From NCBI GenBank assembly GCA_949288455.1, contig CASEKF010000028.1, positions 1 to 49,464 on the forward strand: a stretch of DNA of 49,464 nt, in the 5' to 3' direction. Source of the stretch: an uncultured bacterium. GTDB taxonomy: Bacteria > Vulcanimicrobiota > CADAWZ01. Below are positions 4,185-49,440 of the stretch, in pieces. The translations under genes were made by a program, and so were the position numbers. The notes beneath the pieces are model-generated. The model was not told the DNA's origin, ran no database searches, and saw only the letters and a list, made by a program, of their open reading frames with translations. Positions within the stretch are counted from its first letter, which is position 1, and each line of letters opens with the position of its first letter.

Positions 4185-5051
4185 ATGACTGAAAACAGAT
4201 GCTGCAATTGCGGAGAACATGATGGAACTTACGATTGCGATTGCGTTGACGACGAATTGGTATTTTTACAATGCCCCGTTTGTTATAAGTTAGTTACCGT
4301 TGCCGAAGAACCCGGAAGAGACAATATTTGCGTCGAGTGCTGCGGTAAAAAAATGATTAATTTGAACGAACTTTCAACGTCGGATTCTTATAGATGTTCC
4401 AAGTGCGGAGCCGAGCTTTATATAGGCGATTTTTCTTATCTTAACGGAGATCATGCCGAATTTGTATGCTGCGGTCAAAAGATGGAGCCTATTGACGGCG
4501 TCGCCGAGAATTGCGATACTTATGCTTTTTGCCCCGTATGCAACGTCAGAGTCGCAGTGTCTAAGCCTGAATCGGAAGTCTCCGATATTGAATGCTGCGG
4601 GCATAATTTGATACTTGAAATTGATAACTCGGATTCTATTTACGAATGTTCAAAATGCGGATCTAAGATATTGATTGATATCGATTCGGTTTGCAAAGAC
4701 GCAAATTCATATAAATCTCCGGTATGCTGCGGAGAATTTATGAAATTGGTGAAAAAGGACGTATTTGAAGATGAAGATTTCGATATAGAAGAGAGCGAAG
4801 TTTCTTACGTATGTTTAAATTGTCGCCGTACGATATCTCTTTTACGCGCTGCTGAACATGGCGAGAGCAAAATTGAATGTTGCGGTAAGGAAATGGTATG
4901 CGAGGGCGATGCGCCTGTTCGTTATGGAGAGCTTTATATATGCAAAAAATGCGGTTTGAAACTTATTGTCGAGGAAAGCTGTCTTTGCGATTTAAAAGGC
5001 GCTCCATGTTCCCTCGTATGCTGCGGCGAACAGATGTCGCTGGTAGAATAG
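4185..5051 (+). CDS. Protein of six tandem desulforedoxin-like Cys4 domains
   Basis: 288 residues made almost entirely of six repeats of about 40-45 residues. Each has CxxC, a beta-rich 17-25-residue spacer, then a CCG turn and usually a Met. The cysteine sets are 30/33-52/53, 71/74-95/96, 116/119-137/138, 155/158-181/182, 210/213-232/233 and 253/256-279/280. This is the desulforedoxin pattern (YxCxxCG ... VCCGxxM), in which the four Cys bind a single Fe; zinc is the alternative. An extra Cys-rich head (C6, C7, C9, C18, C20) precedes repeat 1. There is no signal peptide, so it is probably cytoplasmic. No superoxide-reductase domain follows. selB starts 17 bases downstream. Electron carrier, metal store or oxidant sensor are all possible; none is shown. 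Confidence 0.85.
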   Translation: MTENRCCNCGEHDGTYDCDCVDDELVFLQCPVCYKLVTVAEEPGRDNICVECCGKKMINLNELSTSDSYRCSKCGAELYIGDFSYLNGDHAEFVCCGQKMEPIDGVAENCDTYAFCPVCNVRVAVSKPESEVSDIECCGHNLILEIDNSDSIYECSKCGSKILIDIDSVCKDANSYKSPVCCGEFMKLVKKDVFEDEDFDIEESEVSYVCLNCRRTISLLRAAEHGESKIECCGKEMVCEGDAPVRYGELYICKKCGLKLIVEESCLCDLKGAPCSLVCCGEQMSLVE

Positions 5052-5067
5052 TTTTAATATTTCCCTT

Positions 5068-6540
5068 ATGCGTTCCGTAACCGTAGCGGTAGCCGGTCAT
5101 GTCGATCATGGCAAAACTTCTTTGGTAAAAGCTCTTACAGGGATAGACACGGATTCTCTTCCTGAAGAAAAAGCGCGTAAACTTACCATTGAGACGGGAT
5201 TTGCTCCTTTGCTTCTTGAAGATGATTTTTTTGCCGTGTTTGCCGATTTACCCGGTCATGAACATTTTATTGGAAATATGATAGCGGGGTGCGCCGTTTT
5301 TAATTTGGCTGTTCTTGTCGTCGCGGCAAACGAGGGCATTATGCCTCAAACGATAGAGCATATCGATATAATTTCGGCTTTGCGCGACTCGTATCCGCTT
5401 GTCGTCGTGATAACGAAAACGGATTTGGCGGCTCCTGACGTCGTAGAATCCGCGATAGTTCAAGTAGCCGATTTTTTGATTTCAAAAAATATATCCGAGT
5501 TTTATATTCGTCCTTTTTCCGCTAGAACGTTGGAAGGATTATGCGATATTTTAGGGTTAATTCGCGCCTTGGCTGAAAAAACTTGTCTTCCGTCTTCTTC
5601 GGACTCTTTTAGGATGCATGTCGCTCGAGTCTTTTCCGTAAAGGGAGTCGGGGTGGTCGTTACGGGACATGTCGCGTCCGGTTCAGTTAGAAAGGGAGAT
5701 CGTCTTGAAATTTTTCCGGGTTTTCGTTCCTGCGCGGCGAGAAATATTCAAAGATGCGGAATCGACGTTGAGGAAGCTTCGGTCGGAGCCACTCTTGCGT
5801 TAAATATAAAAGGCATCAAGCGGGATAATATATATAGAGGCATGACTATTGTCCAACCTGAGCGTTTTGCTCCGGTTTTAAGAGCGTCGTTTATTTGTAA
5901 GAACGTATCCTCTTCTATTTTGGAAAAAACCGGAGAATTTCTTGTTTATTTAGGAACAAGCAAAGTTTTATCCAAGTTAAAGTTTCATAATCGAATTTTA
6001 CCGGGAGAATCGGGCCCGGCTTCCGTTATTTTTCGGAAGAAAATTATATGTATTGCCGGAGACCGCGTTCTGGTTCGCTCGCTTAATCCGCCTGAGACGA
6101 TAGGAGGGGGAACGATTTTTGAAATTTTTTCAGAATCTTTCGATACTTTTGCGCTTAACGAAAAAAAAACTCGCGTTAGAATAAAAACTCCTCTTTTAAA
6201 TCGCATTTTAAAAGTTGTCGAGCTTGCGGGTTTAAGGGGAATCGCTTTCGGTACGGTAGCGGATTTAACAGGCAAGGATATCGGAACCGTAAGACGACAT
6301 GCCGTTTTTCTTTCTAATAAGTTAAAAATTAAGATTTGCGGTAATTTTTTGGTTTCTTTAAGAGCGTACGACGAACTTAAAAGACAGTTTATTCATTTGC
6401 TTAATACTGGCAGTTCAGGCTCTATAAGCGATATGAGAAATATAATTTCGGCAGGACGTCATTTTCTTGTGGCCGTTTTGGAAGAGTTTGATAGAGAATC
6501 TCTGACTGTCAGAACGGAAAGCGGTCGGCGTTTATTATAA
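5068..6540 (+). CDS. selB: Selenocysteine-specific elongation factor SelB (short form)
   Basis: 490 residues. The GTPase domain begins [17 protein letters not shown] (P-loop), then TDSLPEEKARKLTIETGFAPL. The latter is the SelB-type switch I; EF-Tu differs there. DLPGHEHFIGNM is G3 and ITKTDL is G4. Beta-barrel domains II-III follow to about residue 350. The C-terminus holds only about two winged-helix units. The last, with AGRHFLVAVLEEFDRESLT, corresponds to the SECIS-binding wH4 of longer SelBs, where SRKY..pLLE.lD..gxT is usual. Typical SelB is about 600-640 residues with four wH units, so this one is shortened. It would deliver Sec-tRNA to UGA codons with a SECIS. No selA, selD, tRNA-Sec or selenoprotein is visible in the window. 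Confidence 0.88.
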   Translation: MRSVTVAVAGHVDHGKTSLVKALTGIDTDSLPEEKARKLTIETGFAPLLLEDDFFAVFADLPGHEHFIGNMIAGCAVFNLAVLVVAANEGIMPQTIEHIDIISALRDSYPLVVVITKTDLAAPDVVESAIVQVADFLISKNISEFYIRPFSARTLEGLCDILGLIRALAEKTCLPSSSDSFRMHVARVFSVKGVGVVVTGHVASGSVRKGDRLEIFPGFRSCAARNIQRCGIDVEEASVGATLALNIKGIKRDNIYRGMTIVQPERFAPVLRASFICKNVSSSILEKTGEFLVYLGTSKVLSKLKFHNRILPGESGPASVIFRKKIICIAGDRVLVRSLNPPETIGGGTIFEIFSESFDTFALNEKKTRVRIKTPLLNRILKVVELAGLRGIAFGTVADLTGKDIGTVRRHAVFLSNKLKIKICGNFLVSLRAYDELKRQFIHLLNTGSSGSISDMRNIISAGRHFLVAVLEEFDRESLTVRTESGRRLL

Positions 6541-43510: not shown

Positions 43511-43548
43511 AAGCCCGTAAATGCTTCTTATCGGCATGCGGGCTTTTA
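43511..43548 (+). terminator. Rho-independent terminator after tRNA-Ala
   Basis: AAGCCCG (43511-43517) pairs with CGGGCTT (43539-43545), extended by ATGC/GCAT inside, followed by TTTT. The phosphonate-type operon begins just downstream, so some read-through or an internal promoter must serve it. Confidence 0.85.
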
Positions 43549-43571
43549 TCTTATTTTTACCGGAAAAATTT

Positions 43572-44288
43572 ATGAAAGTTACCTCTAACGATTTAATAAA
43601 AAGAGCCGTTATTATGGCCGCAGGGCTTGGAAGCAGAATGAGGCCTATAACTTATTCTATTCCGAAACCTCTTGTTAAAGTGGGAACTAAACCGTTGATA
43701 GAGACGGGGATAGAAGCTCTTTTAAAAGCTTCCGTAAACGAGATTTTTATAGTCGTCGGTTTTTTACATGAACAATTCGACTACCTTATAAAAAAGTATC
43801 CCGGAGTGAATATTATTTTTAATCCCGATTATGAGACTAAAAATAATATTTCGTCAATTTATGCGGCAAGAGAAGTTTTAACTGAGAATTGTTATATACT
43901 AGAGGCCGATTTATTTATTTCGGACGATACTATTTTTTCTTCTGTCATAGATAGATCTCATTATTATGGCGTTTTTAAGAGCGGCTATTCTAACGATTGG
44001 GTTTTTACTGCCGACTCTGACGGAAGAATAATAAAAATCGGCGTCGGAGGAACAGATTTATATAATATGGTAGGTATTTCGGCTTGGTTAAAGGCAGATA
44101 TCGCTTTAATTTCCGAAAAAATAGCCGAAATGATATCTTTGCCTTCGGGAAAAGATAAATATTGGGATGAAGCCGTTAATTCTTCTCTTGATAAGATATG
44201 CGTATACTTAGAACCGATATTAGAAGGAAGAGTAATTGAAATAGACGATATTAAAGAATTAGAGGCTGTAAGGAATCGATACAAATGA
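43572..44288 (+). CDS. LicC/PntC-like nucleotidyltransferase (probable CTP-dependent activation of an amino-phospho/phosphonate head group)
   Basis: About 238 residues from ATG 43572; the frame extends upstream into the tRNA terminator. The N-terminus AVIMAAGLGSRMRPITYSIPKPLVKV is the sugar-nucleotidyltransferase signature. Later motifs follow LicC (phosphocholine cytidylyltransferase) and the cytidylyltransferase domain of PntC: EIFIVVGFLHEQFDYL, YETKNNISSIYAA, YILEADLFI, YYGVFKSGYSNDW and KYWDEAV. LicC makes CDP-choline; PntC makes CDP-2-aminoethylphosphonate. The stop overlaps the PEP-mutase ATG by 4 bases, which favours a phosphonate substrate. There is no aminotransferase domain here, unlike fused PntC. 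Confidence 0.85.
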   Translation: MKVTSNDLIKRAVIMAAGLGSRMRPITYSIPKPLVKVGTKPLIETGIEALLKASVNEIFIVVGFLHEQFDYLIKKYPGVNIIFNPDYETKNNISSIYAAREVLTENCYILEADLFISDDTIFSSVIDRSHYYGVFKSGYSNDWVFTADSDGRIIKIGVGGTDLYNMVGISAWLKADIALISEKIAEMISLPSGKDKYWDEAVNSSLDKICVYLEPILEGRVIEIDDIKELEAVRNRYK

Positions 44289-45586
44289 AAAAAGTTTTTA
44301 TGAGTTTTGCAACGGATATAGTACATAGCGGTCATCTTAATATAATAGAAAAGGCCGCCGAGTTAGGCGAAATTACGGCCGGTATTCAGACTGACGAAGT
44401 TATAGCTTTAAACAATAGATTTCCTATCGTCGACTTAGAAGAAAGACTTCGAATTTTTTCTTCTTTGAAGCATATCGCTAAAGTTGTGGTTCAGGACACT
44501 CTTTCTTACCGTAAACTTTTAACCGAGTTGAAGCCTGATTACGTAGTTCATGGCGACGATTGGATTAATAACGAGCTTTCTTTTGTTCGCAGGGAAGCGA
44601 TAGAAATTCTCGAATCTTACGGCGGAAAATTAGTTGAGTTTCCCTATACTTATAATAACGTTCTTTCTCATTTAAATCATCAGTTAAAAGTCGCTTCAGG
44701 TCTTACGGAGGTCAGGCGACCGAAATTAAAAAGACTTTTAAAGGTTAAGAATCTTCTTTCTTTTTTAGAGGCTCACAGCGGTCTGAGCGGCTTGATAGTG
44801 GAAAATACGGTAGTATGTAAAGGGGACTCTTTAAAATCTTTCGACGGTATGTGGATTTCGAGTCTTTGCGATTCGACTATGAAGGGGAAGCCCGATATAG
44901 AGCTTGTTGATTTAACCAGCAGACTTGGAACGATTGACGAAATTATGGACGTGACTACGAAACCTATTATTCTTGACGGAGATACAGGAGGCATACCCGA
45001 ACATTTTGCTTATAACGTTAAGACTTTGGAGAGAATAGGCGTTTCGGCCGTTATAATAGAAGATAAAATCGGTCTAAAGAGGAATTCTTTATTTGGAACG
45101 GAAGTAGCGCAAACTCAGGATTCCATTCAAAATTTTTCAGAAAAGATTAAGGCCGGTAAGAAAGCGTTGAATTCGCATGATTTTATGATTTTTGCAAGAA
45201 TTGAAAGTTTGATTCTTGAAAAGGGTATGAAAGACGCTTTATTAAGAGCCGAAAAATATGCGGAGGCTGGGGCCGACGGCATCATGATACATTCCAGGCG
45301 TAAATCTCCCGATGAAGTTTTTGAATTTCTTCGTTCGTTTAGAAAAATTTCTTCAGATATTCCTCTCGTTGTGATTCCGACTGTTTATTCTTCCGTAACT
45401 GAGGAAGAACTTGCGGAGCATGGCGCCAATATTGTTATTTATGCGAATCATTTGATAAGAAGCGCGTATCCGGCTATGCTCAATACGGCTAAATCAATTT
45501 TAATAAATTCGCGAGCTAAAGAAGCTTCTGAAGATTTTTGCATATCTATTAAGGACGTTTTGGAAATATTACCCAATAAAGAATAG
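44285..45586 (+). CDS. pepM: Phosphoenolpyruvate mutase fused to an N-terminal cytidylyltransferase-like domain
   Basis: 433 residues. Residues 1-135 form an HxGH nucleotidyltransferase fold: SFATDIVHSGHLNIIEKA and KPDYVVHGDDW. The ISTT-type motif expected after it is replaced by YTYNNVLSHL, so activity is uncertain. Residues about 150-425 are PEP mutase: FDGMWISSL, LDGDTGG (Mg site), the diagnostic EDK(x)5NS as EDKIGLKRNS (259-268), FARIES, GADGIMIHSRR and VVIPTVY. PEP mutase makes phosphonopyruvate from PEP, the committed C-P bond step. EDKxxxxxNS separates it from isocitrate-lyase relatives. No phosphonopyruvate decarboxylase or AEP transaminase is in the window; they may lie beyond the right edge. 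Confidence 0.93.
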   Translation: MKKVFMSFATDIVHSGHLNIIEKAAELGEITAGIQTDEVIALNNRFPIVDLEERLRIFSSLKHIAKVVVQDTLSYRKLLTELKPDYVVHGDDWINNELSFVRREAIEILESYGGKLVEFPYTYNNVLSHLNHQLKVASGLTEVRRPKLKRLLKVKNLLSFLEAHSGLSGLIVENTVVCKGDSLKSFDGMWISSLCDSTMKGKPDIELVDLTSRLGTIDEIMDVTTKPIILDGDTGGIPEHFAYNVKTLERIGVSAVIIEDKIGLKRNSLFGTEVAQTQDSIQNFSEKIKAGKKALNSHDFMIFARIESLILEKGMKDALLRAEKYAEAGADGIMIHSRRKSPDEVFEFLRSFRKISSDIPLVVIPTVYSSVTEEELAEHGANIVIYANHLIRSAYPAMLNTAKSILINSRAKEASEDFCISIKDVLEILPNKE

Positions 45587-45596
45587 GATTTATTTT

Positions 45597-46811
45597 ATGT
45601 TTTTATATATAGATCCGGGCACGGGAAGCATGCTTTTTAGCATATTTATCGGGATTGCCGCCGCTCTTTATTATTTTTTTAAATTAGCCGTTATTAAAAT
45701 TAAATTTTTGCTTACGGGCAAACGCTTAGATCAGTCTGCGACTCATGAAAGGATTGCCGTATATTCTGAGGGTAAACAGTATTGGAACGTGTTTATGCCG
45801 ATACTGGACGAATTAGAGAGGCGGAAATTATCTGCGGCTTATTTTACGTCCGCCGAAGACGATCCGTTTTTTAGTAAAAATTATAAATATATTTGCGGAA
45901 AATATATTAATGAAGGGAACAAGGCGTTCGCTTTTTTAAATTTTTTGCAGGCCGACATATGTTTAACGACGACTCCGGGACTCGACGTTTATCAATTTAA
46001 ACGTTCCAGAGGGGTCAGACATTATTCCCATATTCTTCATTCCGTCGACGACGCTACCAGCTACGAAATTTTTGGATTAGATTATTACGATTCCGTGCTT
46101 CTTTCGGGAGAATATCAGAAAGAAGGCATTAGGGAACTTGAAAAAAAACGCGGAGATAAGCCTAAGGAATTGGTAGTGGTTGGTTCGACTTATCTCGACG
46201 TTCTTAATGCCAGATCGGCTGAGAATTCAGATTCCGGTCGAGGAAATATGACGGTTTTAGTAGCTCCGTCCTGGGGCAGAAACAGTCTTTTAAGCAAATT
46301 TGGCAAAAAACTCCTTGACCCATTAGCCGATTCTGATTTTAACGTTATTATACGTCCTCATCCCCAATCTTTACGTTCGGAATCCGAGATGATAAAAAAA
46401 TTGAAGCAAAGTTATTCGGATCGTTTTTCTTGGGATTTTGCTCCTGATAATTTTTCTTCTCTTTCCGGGGCCGACATAATGATCAGCGATTTTTCAAGCG
46501 TGATTTTTGATTTTTGTTTTCTTTTTGGACGTCCTGTATTTTATGCCGTTCAGAATTTTAACATGGAAATTTACGACGCGGGGGAGCTTGATTCCGAACC
46601 TTGGAAATTTCAGATATTAAAAGAGATAGCGATTGAGATAAAAGAGGAAGATTTTATAAATTTAGCGGCGAGGCTTAAGGAATCGACGAAGGACGTAAAA
46701 CTTCTCGAGGCGGTTCAAAAGGCCAAGGCCATAGCGTGGCAGCATATTGGGGAAAGCGGAGTCAGGTGCGTCGATTTTCTTCAAGGCAAACTTGAAGAAT
46801 TAAAAAATTGA
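45597..46811 (+). CDS. CDP-glycerol glycerophosphotransferase-like (TagB/TagF family) membrane-anchored protein
   Basis: 404 residues. The N-terminal YIDPGTGSMLFSIFIGIAA and following hydrophobic stretch form a membrane anchor with the small PGTGS motif seen before several envelope-polymer enzymes. The rest follows the TagB/TagF GT-B-like fold: DICLTTTPGLDVYQFKRS, RHYSHILHSVDD, VLVAPSWGRNSL, NVIIRPHPQS and GADIMISDFSSVIFDFCFLFGRPVFY. RPHPQ and the SDFSS acid/Ser pair are the family's key C-terminal motifs. It probably transfers a CDP-activated phospho- or phosphono-alcohol to a glycan or lipid. It starts 10 bases after the PEP-mutase gene. Confidence 0.88.
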   Translation: MFLYIDPGTGSMLFSIFIGIAAALYYFFKLAVIKIKFLLTGKRLDQSATHERIAVYSEGKQYWNVFMPILDELERRKLSAAYFTSAEDDPFFSKNYKYICGKYINEGNKAFAFLNFLQADICLTTTPGLDVYQFKRSRGVRHYSHILHSVDDATSYEIFGLDYYDSVLLSGEYQKEGIRELEKKRGDKPKELVVVGSTYLDVLNARSAENSDSGRGNMTVLVAPSWGRNSLLSKFGKKLLDPLADSDFNVIIRPHPQSLRSESEMIKKLKQSYSDRFSWDFAPDNFSSLSGADIMISDFSSVIFDFCFLFGRPVFYAVQNFNMEIYDAGELDSEPWKFQILKEIAIEIKEEDFINLAARLKESTKDVKLLEAVQKAKAIAWQHIGESGVRCVDFLQGKLEELKN

Positions 46812-46839: not shown

Positions 46840-49440
46840 ATGCATATTGGGCAATTCGTTATGGAATTTTTATATCAAATTTTTATATATCCGGTACAGT
46901 TTTTAGTCGAAGTTATTTATTTGACTTTATACCATGCATTCGAGCAGATACAGGGCAGAAGCGGTTTCGCCATCATAGGAGTTAGCGTGGCCGTTTCGTT
47001 TTTAACTCATCCTTTATATATGAAGGCGGAACTGCTGCAGGACGCGCACAGAAAACTTATGAATAAAATGGCTCCGCGCGTAGAGTCTATTAAGCGTAAT
47101 TTTTCCGGCGATAAGAAGTATATGCTTTTGGACGCTTACTATCGGAAGAATAAATATCACCCTTTTATGGCTCTTCGTAGTTTATTAAGCCTTCTTATAA
47201 TGATTCCTTTTTTTCTTGCGGCTTATATATTTCTATCTACGCCGGGACTTTTGGACGGAGAATCTTTTTTTATCTTAAAAGATTTGGCCAAAGAGGACGC
47301 TTTATTAAAAATCGGGCGATTTGAAGTTAATTTTTTACCTGTTTTAATGACTTTAATTAACATAGCGGCGGGATATGTCTATTCGTTTCGCTTTACTAAG
47401 AGCGAGACTGTGCAGACCTACTGCTCCGCTTTGATTTTTTTGATTTTGCTTTATAATTCTCCTTCGGGCTTAGTTTTATATTGGACATGCAATAATATTT
47501 TTTCTCTTTGTAAAAATCTTTGGTTAAGATACGGATTAAAATGTTCGTATGTTTCATATTTATCTCAATTTATTGATAATTATTGTCCTTCTTTTACGTC
47601 TTCTCCAGGTTTGACGGACTCGCTTTTTATTTCTTCTTCTATATTTTTATGGCTGCTTTCCGGCATTGTTTTGCCTTTTAATATGGCGGCTTCTTCCGCC
47701 GTAGAATTTTGCGATTTGTTGGGCGGCTATTCCGTATGGAGTTTATTATCTTATCCTGTTCTTCAATCTTTTGGAATTTTTTTAGTTTGGGGATCTCTTG
47801 TTTATTTTATGTCGGCCCGGAAAACGAGAAATTTGCTTTCGTTGCTTTTTTGCGCTTTTTCTTTGATAGCCATTATTAATATTTATAGATATGACGCGGG
47901 AACGATGTCTCAGGCTTTAAGATTGAATCCTTCCGAACTTACTATGTCAATTCCTACGTCATGGCTTTTGACTTGTTTTTTAACGATAGTTTTATGCGTT
48001 TTGTTCTATTTTATTATTAAGTTCGGCCATATAAAGGCTATAATGTCTGCTTTTTTTATATTGATTATAGCTTGCGCGATAAACGTAGGAGTTAAGGCTC
48101 AGGATATTTACGCCGGAAATTTGAGATATTTGGAGATTACTCGCAAGGAAAGCGACGTTTTAAAAAGTCCTTCGGTATTTAAATTGACGAAGACGGGTAA
48201 AAACGTCGTAATTATTTTTCTTGATAAGGCTATCAGCGCGTATTTCCCTCTTATTTTATATAGCAATCCGGAACTTAACGAGAAATTATCCGGGTTTGTT
48301 TATTATCCGGATACCGCTTCTTTTTACGCTCATACGATCTTGTCCGTTCCTTCTATTTTTGGCGGTTACGAATATACTCCTGATAAGCTGGACGCCAGAC
48401 TTGGTCAAAAAATGAAAGATAAGCATAACGAATCTCTTTTAGTTCTTCCCGTTATGTTTAAAAATGCGGGAGGAGAAGTTTCCGTTGCCGATTCTCCGTT
48501 AAAAAATTACGAGTGGGTTTCAGACAACGATTTATTTTCTGATTTTGGTATTACCGGGGTGAATATTTCGGGAGAGTTTACTCAGAAATTTCTGAGCGAA
48601 GAGTTAGATATAACTTTGCCTCAGTTTATGCATTCGGCTCTTTTGCGTCATGATTTTTTAATTTACAGTTTTATGAAAATGTCTCCGGAAGCTTTAAACA
48701 GGCGTCTTTATAACAGCGGCAAATATCTTAATACCGTTTATATTTCTTCAAAGAATAAGATTCCCGGCGAGAATATGTCTATGCTTGACGCTTATTCGTC
48801 TTTATTTTACCTTTCGTTTCTTACGGACGCGACTTCGCCTTCTTCTTTGACGCTGAATATTATTTCAAACGAATTGACTCATGAACCTTCCTTCCTTCAA
48901 TATCCCGGCTATAAAGCCGCTTTGGAAGTTACCGATAAAGGCCCGAATATTGTCGGTTCGGAAGATGCTTTTAAACATTATCATGTCAACGCTTCGGCGT
49001 TATTGCTTTTGTCTTCTTGGTTTGATTTTCTTAGAGAACAGGGCGTTTACGACAATACTAAAATTATTATAATTTCAGATCATGGCGCTTTTTTACCTAC
49101 TTGGGCTTCTAAAGAGTCTTTGTCTACGTATTATAATCCTCTTTTTCTCGTTAAGGATTTTGGTTCTTCCGGGCCTGTCAGAACTTCCGAAGATTTTATG
49201 ACTACGGCCGACGTTCCTTATTTAGCTTTAAGAGGCGTTGAAGTCGGTTTTGTCAATCCTTTTACCGGGAATCTCATATCTGATTCGGTAAAAGCCGGAG
49301 GAATATATATTGTGCCGGGAAATAAGCATAATCCTCAGGATTTTCAAGGAGACAGGTGTATTTTTTCTGAATATCTGATTAAAGTTACAAAAGATATTCT
49401 TGACATTTCTCATTGGAAGTTGGAACGGGTTGAAAAATAA
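46840..49440 (+). CDS. Fusion of YidC/Oxa1-like membrane domain with alkaline-phosphatase-superfamily (LTA-synthase/sulfatase-like) domain
   Basis: 866 residues. Residues about 1-235 follow YidC: SFLTHPLYMKAE, NKMAPRVESIKRNF, YYRKNKYHPFMALRSLL, MIPFFLAAYIFL and SPSGLVLYWTCNNIFSL (YidC FPSGLVLYyxxsN). The groove Arg of YidC (E. coli R366 position) appears to be Ser here. Residues about 260-430 hold four or five more membrane helices. The C-terminal ectodomain has VVIIFLDK (D462, metal), HTILSVPSIFGG (T499, likely nucleophile), ELTHEPS (H681) and IIISDHG (D747, H748), the layout of LTA-synthase/EptA-type phosphotransferases. It probably transfers a phospho- or phosphonolipid head group outside the membrane. 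ATG 46840 follows AAAGGG; ATG 46861 is an alternative. Confidence 0.85.
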   Translation: MHIGQFVMEFLYQIFIYPVQFLVEVIYLTLYHAFEQIQGRSGFAIIGVSVAVSFLTHPLYMKAELLQDAHRKLMNKMAPRVESIKRNFSGDKKYMLLDAYYRKNKYHPFMALRSLLSLLIMIPFFLAAYIFLSTPGLLDGESFFILKDLAKEDALLKIGRFEVNFLPVLMTLINIAAGYVYSFRFTKSETVQTYCSALIFLILLYNSPSGLVLYWTCNNIFSLCKNLWLRYGLKCSYVSYLSQFIDNYCPSFTSSPGLTDSLFISSSIFLWLLSGIVLPFNMAASSAVEFCDLLGGYSVWSLLSYPVLQSFGIFLVWGSLVYFMSARKTRNLLSLLFCAFSLIAIINIYRYDAGTMSQALRLNPSELTMSIPTSWLLTCFLTIVLCVLFYFIIKFGHIKAIMSAFFILIIACAINVGVKAQDIYAGNLRYLEITRKESDVLKSPSVFKLTKTGKNVVIIFLDKAISAYFPLILYSNPELNEKLSGFVYYPDTASFYAHTILSVPSIFGGYEYTPDKLDARLGQKMKDKHNESLLVLPVMFKNAGGEVSVADSPLKNYEWVSDNDLFSDFGITGVNISGEFTQKFLSEELDITLPQFMHSALLRHDFLIYSFMKMSPEALNRRLYNSGKYLNTVYISSKNKIPGENMSMLDAYSSLFYLSFLTDATSPSSLTLNIISNELTHEPSFLQYPGYKAALEVTDKGPNIVGSEDAFKHYHVNASALLLLSSWFDFLREQGVYDNTKIIIISDHGAFLPTWASKESLSTYYNPLFLVKDFGSSGPVRTSEDFMTTADVPYLALRGVEVGFVNPFTGNLISDSVKAGGIYIVPGNKHNPQDFQGDRCIFSEYLIKVTKDILDISHWKLERVEK

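Follow-up and report, generated by a model that had tools for sequence, protein, structure and literature searches.

What does a membrane domain of the YidC/Oxa1 type do when it is joined, in one polypeptide, to an enzyme resembling those that build surface polymers? The gene that raises this question belongs to a gut bacterium and lies at 46840..49440 on the forward strand of the window, the whole 49,464-nucleotide stretch of DNA that was analysed.

Anatomy of the fusion protein

The first-pass annotation had described one uninterrupted gene of 866 codons joining a YidC-like core to an alkaline-phosphatase-superfamily domain, with five proposed catalytic residues. The reading frame contains zero internal stops and encodes a YidC-like/LtaS-like fusion of 866 aa, recognised through Pfam, AlphaFold and Foldseek. 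We recovered 82 full-length fusions from many genomes, and because these homologues are independent of one another they rule out an assembly or frameshift join. The gene had been treated as an isolated case; it belongs instead to a widespread family.

The YidC-like domain spans residues ~1-232 (46840..47535, + strand) and consists of an N-terminal helix, a five-helix core and the C1 helical hairpin (61-103). Residues 42-230 match Pfam 60KD_IMP with 79.1 bits (E 4.7e-22, cut-off 35), and the NCBIfam model TIGR03592 scores 78.8 bits, just under its cut-off of 84.3. YidC chains in the PDB were matched by sequence at E 6e-6 with the single sequence and at 3e-13 with a family profile. The helices of the AlphaFold model reproduce the five-helix core with its cytoplasmic C1 hairpin, and the whole fusion was modelled confidently from a 74-sequence alignment (pLDDT 90.5, pTM 0.88).

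Five further membrane helices follow at residues 256-438 (47605..48153, +), matching what the membrane part of LtaS/EptA-type enzymes should look like; they are supported by hydropathy and run in the model from 256-285, 299-324, 327-350, 371-394 and 398-438. The remainder of the chain, residues 440-866 (48157..49437, +), folds in the model as an extracytoplasmic LtaS-like domain of the alkaline phosphatase superfamily, in agreement with Foldseek and with a profile match to LtaS. The predicted product is a YidC core placed ahead of a complete LtaS/EptA-type enzyme. Helix counts indicate that the YidC core ends inside and that the chain, after five more helices, emerges outside, a consistent topology that would place the catalytic domain beyond the membrane. 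A BamA-type Omp85 protein encoded in the same genome makes an outer membrane probable, and the enzyme domain would then be periplasmic.

Profile searches of the two halves, suggested by the first-pass annotation, gave a clear YidC match in the first and a Pfam Sulfatase score of 18.1 bits in the second (residues 727-752), below the cut-off of 25, so that assignment of the enzyme half needed structure. The best folds found by Foldseek in the PDB were LtaS 2w5q (E 1.1e-7), PbgA/YejM, LtaP and MCR-1, which upholds the LtaS-type and superfamily assignments. A family profile of the enzyme half also finds LtaS, aligning the H681 and D747-H748 motifs. The putative active site comprises the metal ligand D462 (48223..48225, +), the nucleophile T499 (48334..48336, +), H681 (48880..48882, +), the counterpart of the LtaS substrate His in 'TNHYPF', and the metal ligands D747-H748 (49078..49083, +), whose 'SDHG' aligns with the LtaS 'GDH'. 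These five residues, as the first-pass annotation had proposed, and also K772, are invariant in 82/82 full-length homologues, and such conservation makes activity of the enzyme half very probable. The earlier reading stood on its YidC match, its continuous frame and its metal site; the completeness of the five-helix LtaS-type enzyme had escaped it, as had the linkage to a TagF-like gene described below.

With LtaS, LtaP, EptA and MCR-1 the protein shares five membrane helices followed by the superfamily domain, as well as the Thr nucleophile, D/H metal ligands and substrate His motif. It differs from them in the YidC-like domain in front, in its sub-threshold Sulfatase score and in an identity of only about 10-15% in the best structural matches. 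Could the enzyme half instead be a hydrolase, a sulfatase or phosphodiesterase that trims or recycles surface groups? The Pfam family bears the name Sulfatase, and profile matches include sulfatases and a phosphonate monoester hydrolase. However, the nucleophile position holds Thr rather than Cys or Ser in all 82 homologues, the best folds are the membrane-anchored transferases LtaS, LtaP and MCR-1 together with PbgA, and the linked genes are biosynthetic, not catabolic. We consider hydrolysis highly improbable; the Thr nucleophile and the closest folds likewise speak against an ordinary sulfatase.

Divergence of the YidC-like half from the insertases

The known role of YidC in bacteria is that of an insertase. 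Loss of the conserved groove arginine had been taken to argue against a general insertase role here, and the wider comparison bears out both the loss and the argument. In the window the column of the YidC groove Arg/Lys is occupied by S53 (46996..46998, +). Across the fusions it holds N, S or T in 78/79 and G in one, with K or R in 0/79, whereas K or R is found in 27/29 genuine YidCs; six stand-alone YidC-like proteins have N in four cases and F in one, the residue being missing in the last.

The half has also gained residues of its own. N174, N218, N219, Y205, Y214 and W215 are invariant across the YidC-like family, and two of them, N174 and N218, are specific to it, the corresponding positions in genuine YidC being mostly M/Q and S/F/T respectively. 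Invariant yet family-specific positions of this kind indicate that the core helices are under a new constraint and not in decay. A tree separates the genuine YidCs from the YidC-like family, fusions and short stand-alone proteins together, with 100/100 support. Compared with the YidC/Oxa1 insertases, the YidC-like half retains the five-helix core, the C1 hairpin, the SPSGLVLYW-N motif and an above-cut-off 60KD_IMP match, but it lacks the groove Lys/Arg, carries the family-specific N174/N218 and falls in a separate clade. It further differs in a YWTCNN...K signature, in a four-residue insertion carrying A63-D/E64, in the absence of the C-terminal tail and in its fusion or linkage to polymer genes.

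A check for a separate, full YidC was also positive: a genuine gene lies elsewhere in the window's genome, beside rnpA- and jag-type genes. The same holds in 18/19 carrier genomes checked, the exception being a MAG that is possibly incomplete. Replacement of the house-keeping YidC by the fusion is ruled out on these grounds. The first-pass proposal that the domain does something different from general insertion holds up.

A narrower role in protein biogenesis must still be weighed, in which the domain is an insertase or chaperone specialised for inserting the N-terminal helix of a TagF-like partner protein, or for folding the LtaS-like domain in cis. The helical core is retained, and it is the retained C1 hairpin in particular that keeps this reading alive; moreover, the groove Arg is dispensable in some YidCs. 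It is countered by the genuine YidC in the same genomes, by the replacement of the C-terminal ribosome-binding tail with enzyme sequence and by the invariant polar residues that are new to its core helices.

A TagF-like partner and rearranged forms of the module

Directly upstream of the fusion gene lies a TagF-like transferase of 404 aa (45597..46811, +) with an N-terminal 'YIDPGTGSM', one membrane helix and a GT-B-like domain, identified by Pfam, modelling and co-occurrence. It matches Pfam Glyphos_transf PF04464 with 37.2 bits (E 2.1e-9, cut-off 22.1); the best PDB match of its model (pLDDT 88.6) is the fold of TagF 3l7k (E 9.9e-12), and the best by sequence is Cps3D. The TagF fold is shared with the TagF/Cps3D/Bcs3 capsule and teichoic acid polymerases, but the partner is smaller, has the YxDPGTGSM membrane anchor and is linked to CMP-phosphonate or NTP_transf-aminotransferase genes. 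The segment Y-[IL]-D-P-G-T-G-S-M is strongly conserved at the N-terminus of these partners and is followed by one helix and then by positive residues. A signal-peptide-like stretch directly precedes it in several, perhaps many, homologues, which would make the motif outward-facing and the enzyme cytoplasmic; the arrangement suggests a YxDPGTGSM tail that faces out and a TagF-like enzyme that faces in.

This anchor bears on the insertase or chaperone reading, since it consists of a short acidic tail, one helix and positive residues after it. Short-tailed single-helix segments resemble known small YidC substrates. Substrates of YidC are listed in PMC7618853.

GTDB genomes were scanned once with a four-sequence alignment of the fusion. 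This survey for the same fusion and its neighbours, which the first-pass annotation had called for, returned 78 loci in which the TagF-like partner recurs, and the 82 full-length fusions are mainly from Spirochaetota and Bacillota. Carriers include Spirochaetota (mostly Treponema and relatives), Bacillota, Desulfovibrionaceae, Duodenibacillus, one Chloroflexota MAG and others; a search of a plasmid collection gave weak matches to ordinary YidC only. Where a GTDB locus has three or more ORFs on each side of the fusion, a TagF-like gene is present in 32/37 cases and adjacent in 28. In 145 evenly drawn Treponemataceae genomes, the TagF-like gene was found in 87 and the fusion in 90, with both in 87 and neither in 55. 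The TagF-like gene occurred without the fusion in 0/145 and the fusion without the TagF-like gene in 3 (Fisher p 7e-37, a value that ignores shared ancestry). Between a TagF-like gene and the closest fusion listed for its contig, the median gap in these genomes is 39 bp. The fusion and the TagF-like transferase are parts of a three-part module and are tightly linked genetically.

More than one member of the fusion family is present in 25/77 loci. In L048, L041, L045, L056 and L058, three to five YidC-LtaS paralogues stand in tandem arrays. At least one LtaS-like paralogue (L084_4, L084:3664-6318) has no YidC-like domain despite a fused paralogue close by, which counts against the relay reading given below. 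The 145 Treponemataceae genomes contain 173 fusion matches, fragments included, against 112 TagF-like matches, an excess that indicates that each LtaS-like copy brings a YidC-like domain along with it. In the arrays there is one YidC-like domain per LtaS copy and not per TagF-like copy, which argues for coupling to the enzyme and against a dedicated insertase for the TagF-like helix. Overall we regard the insertase or chaperone role as rather unlikely, and a non-insertase function of the YidC-like domain as a strong lead.

The three parts are not always joined in the same way. Two Spirochaetota loci (L094 and L096) encode a separate YidC-like protein of 238-286 aa, then the TagF-like protein, then a separate LtaS-like protein; the last has a significant Pfam Sulfatase match in L094 (E 1.5e-8), while the similar protein of L096 has zero Pfam matches. 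In Erysipelothrix (L100, which is Erysipelothrix inopinata, and L105) a stand-alone YidC-like gene is followed by one TagF-LtaS fusion protein. L101 keeps this order but has its TagF-like and LtaS-like parts split into two overlapping frames. In an Alphaproteobacteria MAG (L106) a stand-alone YidC-like gene adjoins the TagF-like one, with two LtaS-like genes a few kilobases downstream. The fused or split state changes about three times on the tree. That the LtaS-like part is fused to the YidC-like part in one lineage and to the TagF-like part in another, while none of the three is lost, is a classical sign of a shared process.

These rearrangements also bear on whether the YidC-like domain is only a scaffold that docks the TagF-like protein, through YxDPGTGSM, to the LtaS-like enzyme, with neither transport nor insertase function. 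Strong conservation of the YxDPGTGS motif and of gene adjacency would fit such docking, as would the covalent TagF-LtaS fusion of Erysipelothrix. That same fusion should make docking dispensable, yet a stand-alone YidC-like gene is kept directly upstream of it, and a pure scaffold does not sit well with the strongly conserved polar residues of the core helices. We therefore judge this role improbable.

The transferred group and a possible lipid relay

The genes further upstream point to the group that the module may handle. A cytidylyltransferase-like domain fused to PEP mutase, the entry enzyme for phosphonates, is encoded at 44285..45586 (+; TIGR02320 390 bits, over cut-off; PF01467), and a LicC/PntC-like nucleotidyltransferase at 43521..44288 (+; PF00483/PF12804). 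Elsewhere in the window, the ORFs show by eye a Cys-rich repeat protein (4185-5051) preceding a SelB-like translation GTPase (5068-6540). Across the fusion loci the neighbours include NTP_transf, CTP_transf, PEP mutase and AEP-type or class I aminotransferases, in two recurrent flavours: PEP mutase with cytidylyltransferase, as in the window, and a nucleotidyltransferase-class I aminotransferase fusion. For many carriers PEP mutase is absent from the stretch examined. The nucleotidyltransferase-aminotransferase fusion stands beside the module in L034, L056, L062, L068, L073, L082 and L095, and possibly makes another CDP-activated amino compound.

CMP activation of 2-aminoethylphosphonate by PntC is established (PMC6697681), and the window shares with the PntC/Ppm phosphonate tailoring clusters both the PEP mutase-cytidylyltransferase fusion and the LicC-like nucleotidyltransferase; the main text of that paper mentions neither YidC nor sulfatase. 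An AEP transaminase (414.6 bits) is encoded on another contig of the window's genome (G000:C46:7353-8465; L144:7353-8465), far from the PEP mutase locus. No phosphonopyruvate decarboxylase scored over cut-off in this genome, which is 98.9% complete. This makes 2-AEP an insecure identification of the activated group, and we dropped the proposal that the product is specifically this compound. Such groups do reach surface glycans, as shown by a flagellar glycan of C. difficile that bears phospho-N-methylthreonine and on which 2-AEP can occur as well (PMC8861647).

Taken as a whole, the best explanation, to which we give an even chance, is an LtaS/EptA-type phosphotransferase with an added N-terminal YidC-like domain, working in a relay module. 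Nucleotidyltransferases would make a CMP- or CDP-activated small head group, in the window a phosphonate via PEP mutase. The TagF-like protein, anchored by its N-terminal helix, would move this group onto a membrane-bound carrier on the cytoplasmic side. The YidC-like domain, whose groove is without the insertase-type positive charge, would receive, pass or flip the lipid-linked intermediate, and the LtaS-like domain would take the phospho or phosphono group onto its Thr and transfer it to a surface glycan. The chemistry suggested for activation, loading and transfer follows from the protein families; the step assigned to the YidC-like domain is proposed by analogy with genuine YidC, and the carrier and acceptor named here are putative. 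The first-pass idea that the YidC fold may present a lipid-linked acceptor agrees with these observations. It is likely that the module decorates the surface and that its LtaS-like domain is the phospho(no)transferase, while the passing or flipping of lipid by the YidC-like domain is a tentative suggestion.

Phospholipid scrambling by YidC and its Oxa1-family relatives is seen both in vitro and in simulations (PMC10491306), which makes the uncharged polar groove a plausible path for lipid head groups, though non-specific scrambling may be incidental to the YidC fold. It is conceivable, if speculative, that a branch of the YidC/Oxa1 family left insertion and became a lipid flippase or scramblase dedicated to an LtaS-type enzyme, in a one-operon machine with a TagF-like enzyme. 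If true, cytoplasmic CDP/CMP donors would supply the activated phospho- or phosphono-head groups that this flippase machine moves onto surface glycans.

All three folds, YidC, LtaS-type and TagF, are already known; the module of TagF-like, YidC-like and LtaS-like parts is new here. In the open-access literature searched, which takes in few subscription journals, we found neither the fusion nor the YidC sub-clade nor the three-part module described. It seems that an insertase fold has been put to a new use, as an aid in decorating the cell surface. To our knowledge, the lipid scrambling of YidC in vitro has no assigned role in bacteria. A distinct YidC clade tied to a surface-polymer enzyme offers a natural system in which lipid scrambling may be the actual job, and the module yields candidate genes for what follows CMP activation when the surfaces of spirochaetes and gut bacteria are modified with phosphonates or related groups.
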